From Bacteroidia bacterium (GTDB taxonomy: Bacteria > Bacteroidota > Bacteroidia > Flavobacteriales > Flavobacteriaceae): DNA of 64,000 nucleotides. The stretch lies in assembly GCA_030425285.1 (NCBI GenBank), contig JAUIAY010000001.1:482963-546962 (forward strand), given 5' to 3'. The translations under genes were made by a program, and so were the position numbers. Position 1 is the first letter of the stretch, and each line of letters starts with the position of its first letter. This document shows positions 22,536 through 25,498 of this stretch, one piece after another. Below the pieces are notes generated by a model, which did not search any database, was not told the origin of the DNA, and saw only the letters and a list, made by a program, of their open reading frames with translations.

Positions 22536-24434
22536 ATGAGTGACGCTTTAAAACACGAATGTGGTATTGCACAAATCAGACTTCTAAAACCTTTAGAGTA
22601 CTACAAGGAAAAATATGGTAGTGCTTTTTACGGAGTTAATAAAATGTATTTAATGATGGAGAAACAGCACAATCGCGGTCAGGATGGTGCGGGTTTTGCC
22701 AGTATTAAATTAGACACCAATCCTGGTGAGCGCTACATCAGTCGTGTTCGTTCTATTGCCCAACAGCCTATACAAGATATTTTTGCTCAAATTAACGATC
22801 GAATCAACAAGGAGTTTACAGAAAACCCTGAATATGTTGATGATGTTGCCCTTCAAAAAAAGCACATTCCCTATATAGGCGAAGTGTTGCTTGGCCATGT
22901 TCGCTATGGTACTTTTGGAAAAAACAGTGTTGAGAGCGTACACCCTTTTTTAAGACAAAACAATTGGATGCACAGAAACCTGATTGTCGCAGGGAACTTT
23001 AATATGACCAATGTTAATCAGTTGTTTGATGGTTTGGTTAATTTGGGACAACATCCAAAGGAAAAAGCCGACACGATTACCATTATGGAAAAAATCGGCC
23101 ATTTTCTGGATGATGCTGTTTTAAAGCTTTATAAAAAATTAAAGAAAGAGGGTTACAGCAAGAGTGAATGTTCTCCTTTAATTGCAGAGCGTCTAAACAT
23201 TGCTAAAATCCTAAAAAAATCCTCCAAAAACTGGGATGGTGGTTATGCTATGGCTGGCTTGTTGGGACATGGCGATTCGTTTGTATTGCGAGATCCAGCT
23301 GGAATTAGGCCTGCCTATTATTACAAAGATGATGAAGTAGTGGTTGTAGCTTCAGAAAGACCTGTTATTCAAACAGTATTTAATGTCGCCTTTGATGACG
23401 TCAAGGAATTGGAGCCTGGCCATGCGATTATCACTAAAAAAACAGGCGAAGTATCCATCAAAAAAATTATTGAGCCACTTGAAAGAAAGGCTTGTTCATT
23501 TGAGCGTATTTATTTTTCACGCGGAAGTGATGCCGAAATTTATCAAGAGCGCAAAAAGTTAGGAAAGTTGCTTATGCCAAAAGTCTTGGAATCCATAGAA
23601 AACGACACCAAAAACACGGTGTTTTCCTATATTCCAAATACTGCTGAAACATCATTCTTTGGTATGATAGAAACTGTTGAAGAACATCTCAACCAGAAAA
23701 AAACCCAGGCTATTTTGGATGGTAAGGGTGGATTATCCGCAGAAACTGTTACTGATATTTTAGCTGAAAGACCGCGTATTGAAAAAATAGCTATTAAGGA
23801 CGTAAAGTTAAGAACATTTATAACCGAAGATAGTAGTCGTGATGATTTGGTTGCCCATGTCTATGATGTTACCTATGGTGTTATTAAACCAACGGACAAT
23901 TTGGTAATCATTGATGATAGTATTGTAAGAGGGACTACTCTCAAAAAGAGTATCATCAAAATGATGGACAGACTGCACCCTAAAAAAATAGTTGTCGTCT
24001 CATCGGCACCTCAAATTCGTTATCCGGACTGTTACGGTATTGATATGGCCAGACTAGAAGATTTAATTGCTTTTAGGGCTATGCTAGAACTATTGGAAGA
24101 AAACAACAAATATCAGATGGTTCAAGAAGTTTATGAGAAGTGCAAGGCGCAAGTTGATTTGGAGGATAAGGACGTACGTAATTTTGTTAAGGATCTCTAC
24201 GCGCAATTTACCGATGATGAGATTTCAGATAAAATAGCACAACTAATATCTGACGAATCTGTTAATGCTGAAGTAGAGGCCATTTTCCAATCGGTTGAAA
24301 ATTTACATGAAGCTTGCCCTAAAAATTTAGGTGATTGGTATTTTACGGGTGATTATCCAACGGTTGGTGGAAACCGAGTTGTGAACAGAGCCTTTATAAA
24401 CTTTTTTGAAGGCAACAAGGAAAGAGCCTATTAA
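22536..24434 (+). CDS. purF: amidophosphoribosyltransferase, Bacteroidota long type
   Basis: First committed step of purine synthesis: glutamine plus PRPP to phosphoribosylamine. It is 632 residues, longer than E. coli PurF (about 505) but normal for the Bacteroidota form. The N-terminal glutaminase has its nucleophile at Cys9 (KHECGIAQIRLL) and MEKQHNRGQDGAGFAS; it would need N-terminal processing to free the Cys. The phosphoribosyltransferase part has the PRPP loop VIIDDSIVRGTTLKKS and SSAPQIRYPDCYGIDM. Some related proteins may be paralogues of PurF, so the symbol is slightly uncertain. Confidence 0.9.
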   Translation: MSDALKHECGIAQIRLLKPLEYYKEKYGSAFYGVNKMYLMMEKQHNRGQDGAGFASIKLDTNPGERYISRVRSIAQQPIQDIFAQINDRINKEFTENPEYVDDVALQKKHIPYIGEVLLGHVRYGTFGKNSVESVHPFLRQNNWMHRNLIVAGNFNMTNVNQLFDGLVNLGQHPKEKADTITIMEKIGHFLDDAVLKLYKKLKKEGYSKSECSPLIAERLNIAKILKKSSKNWDGGYAMAGLLGHGDSFVLRDPAGIRPAYYYKDDEVVVVASERPVIQTVFNVAFDDVKELEPGHAIITKKTGEVSIKKIIEPLERKACSFERIYFSRGSDAEIYQERKKLGKLLMPKVLESIENDTKNTVFSYIPNTAETSFFGMIETVEEHLNQKKTQAILDGKGGLSAETVTDILAERPRIEKIAIKDVKLRTFITEDSSRDDLVAHVYDVTYGVIKPTDNLVIIDDSIVRGTTLKKSIIKMMDRLHPKKIVVVSSAPQIRYPDCYGIDMARLEDLIAFRAMLELLEENNKYQMVQEVYEKCKAQVDLEDKDVRNFVKDLYAQFTDDEISDKIAQLISDESVNAEVEAIFQSVENLHEACPKNLGDWYFTGDYPTVGGNRVVNRAFINFFEGNKERAY

Positions 24435-24542
24435 AACATTGTAAATCTGCACTTTATCTGAAAAAATATGCGCTTTGCCTAAAAAAAATGCATTTCATCT
24501 ATTTTTTAGCAATTTCTAATTAAATAAAAATTACATTAGTAC

Positions 24543-24620
24543 CACCATAACATAAGTAGGTTAAGTTCATGGTAGATTTGGGGCAAAAAAAGGTGAACTT
24601 TCGTTCGCCTTTTTTTATTT
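24543..24620 (+). ncRNA. putative small RNA, copy 1
   Basis: About 75 nt. A 5' hairpin pairs CCATAAC (24545-24551) with GTT-C-ATGG (24565-24572, one bulged C). An unpaired stretch AGATTTGGGGC and an A-run follow, then an intrinsic terminator AGGTGAAC-TTTC-GTTCGCCT with a T tract. The -7-like box TACATTAG at 24532 (one mismatch to TAnnTTTG) is correctly placed for a start near 24543. It matches copy 2 almost base for base over the first 48 nt. Family unknown to me. Confidence 0.7.
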
Positions 24621-24731
24621 TCTTTTAGTTCAAATCAACTTTTTAGTCAATTAAAAATCTCATTTAGATTGTTTTAGCCTAATTTATAAGTCGTTTGTCT
24701 AATAATTTTTAAGGTTAACAATAAGCAATGT

Positions 24732-24739
24732 TATATTTG
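24732..24739 (+). promoter_or_regulatory. -7 promoter element of RNA copy 2
   Basis: TATATTTG is a perfect TAnnTTTG box placed 4 bp before the conserved block of copy 2. The corresponding box of copy 1 lies at exactly the same relative place, though the DNA around the two boxes is otherwise different. Confidence 0.65.
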
Positions 24740-24742
24740 TCT

Positions 24743-24816
24743 CACCATAACATAAGTAGGTTAAGTTTATGGTAGATTTGGGGCAAAAAAGGTGAACATC
24801 TGTTCACCTTTTTTCA
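24743..24816 (+). ncRNA. putative small RNA, copy 2
   Basis: Second unit. It is identical to copy 1 over the first 48 nt except for the bulged base (C in copy 1, T here). The terminator stem AGGTGAAC/GTTCACCT is perfect, whereas copy 1 has a U-G pair at one step; the loops differ (ATCT against TTTC). Paired positions are kept while loop and bulge vary, which supports a structured RNA. There is no open reading frame of note. Confidence 0.72.
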
Positions 24817-24833
24817 TTTAAAAATATTCATAA

Positions 24834-24865
24834 AAAAAGCGAACTCGAATAAGTCCGCTTTTTTA
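24834..24865 (-). terminator. terminator after sodA, possibly bidirectional
   Basis: A stem of GCGAACT with AGTCCGC (one mismatch) is flanked by A-runs on the left and T-runs on the right, so it can act on both strands. It lies 25 bp past the sodA stop and 18 bp past the second small RNA. Confidence 0.7.
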
Positions 24866-24889
24866 TTTATTGATTAAGAAATATAATTA

Positions 24890-25498
24890 TTATTTTGATT
24901 CGGCATAACGTCTTTCAACTTCATTCCAGTTAATCACCTTAAAGAACGCATCAATATAATCTGGTCTTCTGTTTTGATAGTTTAAATAATAGGCATGCTC
25001 CCAAACATCCAATCCTAAAATAGGCGTACCACCACATCCTACTCCTGGCATTAATGGGTTATCCTGATTAGGTGTTGAGCACACTTCTACTTTTCCGCCT
25101 TTGTGAACACACAACCATGCCCAACCAGATCCAAATTGTGTAGCAGCAGCTTTACTGAAAGCATCTACAAAAGCTTCTTTAGAACCAAATTCTGCCTCGA
25201 TAGCATCCTTTAATTCTCCTGACAAATAACCTCTGTCTTCAGGGTTCATTACTTCCCAAAATAAGGAGTGGTTGTAAAATCCACCACCATTATTTCTAAC
25301 TCCCATGTTATTCTTATCTAAATTAATTAAGATGTTTTCAATAGTCTTACCTTCTAAATCTGTTCCTTCAATAGCAGCATTTAATTTAGAAGTATAACCT
25401 GCATGATGCTTTGAGTGGTGTATTTCCATTGTACGTGCATCTATATGAGGCTCAAGAGCATCATAAGCATATTTTAATTTCGGTAATTCGAAAGCCAT
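24890..25498 (-). CDS. sodA: superoxide dismutase, Fe/Mn type
   Basis: Converts superoxide to oxygen and hydrogen peroxide; 202 residues, no signal peptide, so cytoplasmic. Metal ligands are visible as the His in [11 protein letters not shown], the His in [10 protein letters not shown], and Asp and His in [16 protein letters not shown]. Fe versus Mn preference cannot be decided by eye. Single gene, divergent from the AddA-like gene, with its own terminator. Confidence 0.97.

Follow-up and report, generated by a model that had tools for sequence, protein, structure and literature searches.

A candidate multicopy small RNA of Flavobacteriaceae at the purF-sodA site, with complementary partner RNAs and a proposed start-codon masking role

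Comparison across genomes places the two similar units that lie between purF and sodA in our window (the whole stretch of 64,000 nucleotides that was analysed) in a widespread Flavobacteriaceae sRNA family, which usually occupies one chromosomal site. The best explanation of our data, to which we give a probability of about 0.75, is that a multicopy trans-acting sRNA covers start codons and that decoys titrate it. Each unit would yield a trans-acting sRNA of about 75 nt from its own TAnnTTTG-type promoter, and the direct repeats upstream would bind an activator, perhaps a response regulator of the LytTR type. The first forty nucleotides at the 5' end of the sRNA, which hardly vary, would be antisense to the translation starts of targets: GAUUUGGGG would pair upstream and the CAU of the sRNA with the AUG, so that initiation would be blocked without Shine-Dalgarno pairing. 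One conserved target would be a small-ORF mRNA encoded beside an oligopeptide-type ABC gene; the decoys, for which one group of genera has a noncoding anti-sRNA and the genus of the window 3'UTR elements, would pair with the sRNA and titrate it, and the multicopy array would set its dose. For the wider notion of a family-wide circuit, in which the sodA-side array with its AUG-antisense 5' half represses where Shine-Dalgarno sequences are unused, decoys are clade-specific and co-varied, and targets share the promoter repeats, we see even odds.

The regulation by sRNAs is little studied in Bacteroidota, and the Shine-Dalgarno sequence is a common sRNA target in other bacteria. Flavobacteria are reported, in the available text of one paper, to lack Shine-Dalgarno sequences (PMC9723704). 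A family whose model matches 85% of the sampled Flavobacteriaceae genomes, with partners and an AUG register, makes the mode of action of such an sRNA directly testable; it would also add two new families to Rfam and draws attention to a conserved small protein that Pfam does not match.

The twin units and their family

Unit 1 (24544-24619, plus strand) consists of a hairpin (24544-24573), the linker AGATTTGGGGC (24574-24584) and a terminator (24585-24619), and is matched at G000:C7:507506-507581 (E 3.4e-18) by R1, a covariance model made from an alignment of 68 copies. Unit 2 (24744-24818, plus strand) has the same anatomy with T (24768) instead of C as the bulge base and is matched at G000:C7:507706-507780 (E 2.1e-17); both units are among the 68 training sequences. 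In the predicted fold of each, an open linker separates a 5' hairpin from the terminator, and the energy z-score is -4.81 for unit 1 (0 of 200 shuffles as good) and -4.01 for unit 2 (1 of 200). The 5' hairpin alone, taken as a 38-nt piece with the outermost pair omitted, is ordinary in energy, with z -0.27 and 72 of 200 shuffles doing as well, and its support is comparative rather than energetic.

The sequence-only reading of this DNA had described a shared 48-nt block with a single C/T change at a bulge, and direct comparison bears it out, 24543-24590 and 24743-24790 being identical but for C24568/T24768. The TAnnTTTG-like box that it saw at the same distance from both units is likewise there, as the -7 boxes TACATTAG (24532-24539, plus strand) and TATATTTG (24732-24739, plus strand), and so are intrinsic terminators whose stem is kept through a G-U replacement (a U-G pair in unit 1, U-A at the same place in unit 2). 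The exact spacing of 200 bp from start to start is real in the window but without significance: it is a coincidence, because the 75 array spacings measured in fetched loci span 152 to 611 bp. The further statement that all DNA outside the units differs fails upstream, where both carry TTTnnTCTAA-like direct repeats 5' of the -7 box. The genome of the window has a third copy (G000:C4:98847-98919; L002, L202), whose terminator stem differs in sequence and still pairs; copies outside purF-sodA were seen in congeners as well (L203-L207). The possibility that a unit is a coding sequence was set aside on reading the copies, because copies differ by one base (GGTA or GGTAA), which would put any reading frame out of register. 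The interval from unit 2 to sodA holds a hairpin (24834-24866) with runs of A and of T, which resembles a bidirectional terminator.

With R1 (E<=1e-4, strict filters) we found matches in 255 of 299 Flavobacteriaceae genomes (85%) and 174 of 203 genera, with 1-7 matches per positive genome, and no match in the other 44 genomes. Zobellia, Maribacter, Flavobacterium, Aquimarina and Winogradskyella are among the genera in the matches listed. In the order and phylum samples 32 of 196 and 15 of 198 genomes were positive; every match lay within Flavobacteriaceae and none outside that family in either sample. When 36 genomes, including 23 earlier negatives, were rescanned with lax filters, 18 of the 23 scored E-values of 1e-4 to 0.075 and five gave nothing; only one of the lax-filter matches (L047) adjoins purF and sodA. 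In that genome (G468), scored as negative, the sequence between the two genes looks like a decayed copy.

The upstream neighbour in the window is a purF-like gene (22536-24434, plus strand), recognised from its ORF, its synteny and its Pfam hits, of which only GATase_7 is above its cut-off; the protein has glutamine-amidotransferase Pfam matches only, the best of 29.5 bits, and at E<=0.01 none to a phosphoribosyltransferase. The convergent downstream neighbour is sodA, an Fe/Mn superoxide dismutase gene (24890-25498, minus strand; Pfam Sod_Fe_N, Sod_Fe_C; synteny). The comparison with relatives shows that the site is shared: one or both of these genes were present in the fetched DNA of 112 of the 118 stretches named (of at least 118), and both in 84. 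Neither was present in six (L086, L095, L137, L147, L168, L192), and in two of these, L095 and L168, no more than about 130 bases separate the RNA from the edge of the fetched DNA. One would argue that tandem and some ectopic copies fit a repeat or mobile element without any trans function. We regard such an element as highly improbable, since the purF-sodA location is kept, the units have promoter elements of their own and their stems covary. In phages there were five matches, all confined to the end of the linker and the terminator (query positions from 43 or 44 on), and a mobile origin was also rejected in the searches, where the exact pattern was unmatched in viral contigs and plasmids gave no match. 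Weak BLAST matches in three genomes of other families (E 1e-4 to 5e-4) cover the terminator part only.

The stems are conserved across homologues. In a structure alignment of 142 matches (122 distinct) 97.5% of 2896 cells are paired, 21 of 24 pairs show changes on both sides, and 0 of 500 shuffles reach any of five measures; this alignment was made to fit the structure and takes in a few weak matches. Six weak rows (L046, L047, L048, L049, L050 and the second L043 match) are counted here and were dropped from the promoter and synteny counts. The variation lies mostly in the terminator stem and the 5' hairpin is nearly invariant; in its inner helix (helix 2) one pair has 15 unpaired cells, mainly in Flavobacterium (g134) copies that read ATTAGTAGG. 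Hardly any variation is seen in the loop AGTAGGTTAA or the linker GATTTGGGG, and the copies fall into two types, GGTAGATTTGGGG and GGTAAGATTTGGGG.

Comparison of 134 distinct upstream regions revealed conservation of TAnnTTnG at -12 to -5, which supports the two -7 boxes by position, and of two further blocks about 20 bp apart, near -70/-64 and -49/-44. This box and the terminator are both conserved in the family, and each copy may be an independent transcription unit. In the window, three direct repeats 20-21 bp apart (starting at 24449, 24470 and 24490; 24449-24503, plus strand) precede unit 1 and coincide with positions conserved in relatives, and two repeats 20 bp apart (24670-24704, plus strand) precede unit 2; we consider those of unit 1 putative activator sites. 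LytTR sites are direct repeats about 21 bp apart. The repeats resemble the AlgR core site CCGTTCGTC and its lower-affinity form CCGTTTGTC, and a repeat in L013, CCGTTTGTC, equals the AlgR site algD-RB3, as these are given in the available text of PMC4064291. A single repeat means little, because GCAYTTYRTCKA is not above chance in the 64-kb window (7 found, 4.64 expected). A LytTR-type response regulator is a plausible activator of the sRNA promoter.

At the gathering score, Rfam gave no sRNA match in the whole window, only a tRNA, and no match in eight fetched loci that hold sRNA copies or partner RNAs. The suggestion that the units might belong to an Rfam family such as Flavo-1 did not survive the covariance search, in which neither unit was matched: Flavo-1, which like the units is a Flavobacteriaceae motif, does not score at E<=10 in region 24440-24890 and is absent from the window scan. 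FopS (RF04319) was rejected as well, since its best scores, 19.7 and 15.2 bits, fall short of the gathering score of 56. Within the sources available to the literature search we recognised no published description of this RNA, and the letters AAGTAGGTTAAG occur there in one paper, on Candida. The sRNA family is uncatalogued in Rfam.

A small-ORF mRNA with sites over its start codon

A strict search pattern, composed of the linker and loop complements with a gap range that excludes the sRNA's own antisense, matched 36 of 395 genomes (27 of 203 genera), and its reversed control matched none. Among 30 fetched pattern places, 23 adjoin the same gene, an oligopeptide-type ABC gene (Pfam ABC_tran, oligo_HPY), and 22 have, convergent with it, a small ORF of 41-44 aa (MN...NLPEQPT...KSLxYLTKKxFML-like); the peptide of the window's own genome has no Pfam match. 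The stricter ORF filter used for the site analysis kept 22 of 33 loci, which represent 21 distinct places, L215 and L346 being the same; L233, L352, L353 and L354 were filtered out though they lie at the small-ORF locus.

A complementary site covering the AUG, about -30 to +4, is present in 22 of the 22 small-ORF entries, and a second site within about +7 to +50 in 21 of them (merged with the first in L361). The best site per leader beats 1100 of 1100 shuffles. The part spanning the AUG (-45 to +6) was tested separately because the downstream site at +7 had been selected by the pattern, and 0 of 4400 shuffles were as strong over the 22 entries; in L347 and L348 the search pattern matched the AUG site itself. 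In the genome of the window the leader starts near G000:C7:691756 and the ORF is 691874-692002 (L293); its duplex with the sRNA reaches -47.1 kcal/mol (0 of 300 shuffles), a value that, like all duplex energies given here, ignores each RNA's own fold. Synonymous differences are 88 of 585 in the first 14 codons (same-length pairs only) versus 911 of 2718 in the last 20, which may reflect RNA-level constraint on the early codons and is only suggestive, because the two counts come from different sets of pairs and from related sequences.

The direction of the effect could be the reverse of what we propose. The small-ORF mRNA might be the chief sponge of the sRNA, or might be activated by it, with the peptide incidental, a reading that differs from the best explanation in direction only and that we think rather doubtful. 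Most leaders carry two to four sites, beyond what repression needs, and in L216 and L354 the complementary sites persist where the small ORF looks disrupted, as a sponge would have it. However, the last 20 codons of the peptide are conserved (1513, 731 and 2006 differences by codon position), and the AUG-spanning site in 22 of 22 entries is what translational control predicts. Start-codon masking would act on the small-ORF mRNA as repression.

Anti-sRNAs, 3'UTR elements and matching variants

Five of the 30 pattern places (L343, L350, L355, L356, L362) are a putative short RNA gene of another kind, CCCAAATCTTACC..AACCTACTTAATGC-like with a terminator directly after; upstream of it are a CATCTTTG-like box and TTGACAACT, which reads TTTACAACT in L343. 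Two places (L335 and L363) are neither small-ORF mRNA nor anti-sRNA. With R2, a sequence model of this anti-sRNA (threshold E<=1e-5), 54 of 299 genomes from 39 genera were positive, 53 of the 54 at E<=3e-8; of the additional weaker matches, at least two (G022, G036) fall on the antisense strand of sRNA arrays. The sRNA is matched in each of the 54 genomes as well (P 7e-5, with relatedness ignored and both samples taken as the same 299), and hence a separate seed-complementary RNA that co-occurs with the sRNA, as expected of a QrrX-type sponge pair, is found in 54 of 299 genomes. The anti-sRNA of G219 forms a duplex of -46.2 kcal/mol with the sRNA (0 of 300 shuffles). Among nine anti-sRNA loci whose ORFs were listed, Pfam identified fasciclin and YidC neighbours in L384 and an MnmA neighbour in L383; L396 has four tandem copies of the anti-sRNA.

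The genus of the window has complementary elements of another sort. In three genomes (G000, which is the window's own, G003 and G004) a gene whose product has what we take to be a T9SS-like C-terminus ends 8-13 bases before a complementary 3'UTR element, which a terminator follows. These elements pair with the sRNA at -37.6 to -39.3 kcal/mol (0 of 200 shuffles each), the value for the own genome being -39.3. Most family members are without an identified partner, because the small-ORF pattern is found in 36 of 395 and the anti-sRNA in 54 of 299 genomes, both in strict searches.

The partners carry the variant of the local sRNA. The TACC or TTACC form of the partner fits the sRNA of the same genome in 19 of 19 genomes checked: the 3 genomes with CAAATCTTACC all have GGTAAGATTT, and the 16 with CAAATCTACC all have GGTAGATTT. 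This match reflects few events, because the two variants follow related genera; the comparison left out G210 and G686 (both TTACC), and in G313 one of two partner places (L335) lies outside the small-ORF locus. The pairing itself is not type-specific, as cross-type duplexes are still strong (-34.9 kcal/mol for a TACC sRNA with a TTACC anti-sRNA, -43.3 for a TTACC sRNA with a TACC partner). We considered that the sRNA might instead titrate a protein, in the manner of CsrB or 6S RNA, with tandem copies serving as dose and complements arising as by-products. The near-invariant open loop and linker and the multicopy arrays fit such a role, but antisense partners that carry the local variant in two unrelated contexts argue against it, and we judge it improbable. 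Under titration by base pairing, which we prefer, anti-sRNAs and 3'UTR elements would act as decoys.

The complements of AGATTTGGGGC that recur in partner RNAs uphold the early reading of the units as twin regulatory RNAs. The idea of the exposed linker as a seed stands for the same reason and is incomplete: since the hairpin loop and stem also pair with the partners, nearly the whole 5' half is antisense. As a separate observation, in eight loci (L024, L026, L027, L028, L030, L036, L074, L083) the sodA-proximal unit stands apart as a variant, GATTTGGGACG, that has a conserved upstream sequence of its own; many anti-sRNA genes carry GTCCCAAATC, which would suit this variant better than other units, if the GT of GTCCCAAATC is transcribed.

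Start regions in congeners and related systems

The linker complement CCCCAAATC has 96 sites in five congeneric genomes versus 36 of the reversed pattern; 16 are sRNA genes themselves and the other 80 were all fetched. The loop complement TTAACCTACT alone was rejected as a signal, being rarer than its reversed control in 5 of the 5 genomes. In four congeners CCCCAAATC lies 1-2 bases before the ATG of an ORF of at least 390 codons in seven genes: five M14 carboxypeptidases, assigned by Pfam for L286 and by similarity for the other four, and two (L285, L300) that we presume from their sequence pattern to be LRR-like. Their duplexes span the start codon (-12 or -11 to +16 or beyond) at -22.4 to -37.6 kcal/mol, with 0 to 8 of 200 shuffles as strong, and are individually only moderately strong, except for L300. 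As read from the duplex brackets, the C/T position of the sRNA is opposite the G of the AUG in the M14 duplexes. Two direct repeats and a TATATTAG box stand in 5 of the 5 leaders printed (L243, L251, L286, L285, L300). In a third group (L248, L250, L287) CCCCAAATC is two bases upstream of a short ORF, with 2, 0 and 9 of 200 shuffles as strong. Complementarity to trans-encoded start regions is conserved: all 22 small-ORF entries have it, and so do ten starts of the M14, LRR-like and third groups, each equalled by 0-9 of 200 shuffles. In congeners, the sRNA probably also targets mRNAs that encode secreted M14 carboxypeptidases or LRR-like proteins.

The genome of the window has no M14- or LRR-type start site that we could find, and its six one-mismatch seed sites include one 3'UTR element and no start-codon target. 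A scan of 100 genomes for CCCCAAATC near an ATG gave, among 30 loci listed, 24 non-self places and no new ORF of 70 aa; these places, one per genome, give 35 aa or fewer in 23 cases and lie inside a longer frame in one. CCCCAAATC before an ATG is thus no general target signal.

Among known systems, judged by the available text of each paper, FopS/GibS of Bacteroides are like our family in being multicopy Bacteroidota sRNAs of about 65-70 nt, and like our proposal in pairing near the start codons of surface-protein mRNAs (SusC homologues) (PMC11697453). They are described in Bacteroidaceae, where the counter-player is a protein, RbpB, and that text contains no anti-FopS RNA (PMC11697453). Qrr1-4 and QrrX of Vibrio cholerae resemble the arrangement proposed here in organisation: redundant multicopy sRNAs are inactivated by a base-pairing sponge that has its own activator, with Hfq and RNase E acting (PMC9732341). 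Unlike Qrr, the units here mostly form a one-site tandem array in one bacterial family, and their predicted pairing takes in the AUG.

Rfp18 of Flavobacterium psychrophilum, which we compared by its published description only, is an sRNA conserved in the genus Flavobacterium (PMC9723704, available text). Its predicted targets, metalloproteases and a secreted adhesin, are comparable in class with the M14, LRR-like and third-group genes, whereas its pairing region is described as lying in a third stem-loop, and on its deletion two protease mRNAs fell rather than rose (PMC9723704). Within our third group, the promoter region looks unlike those of the M14 and LRR-like genes, and in L287 a large secreted-looking protein follows the short ORF.
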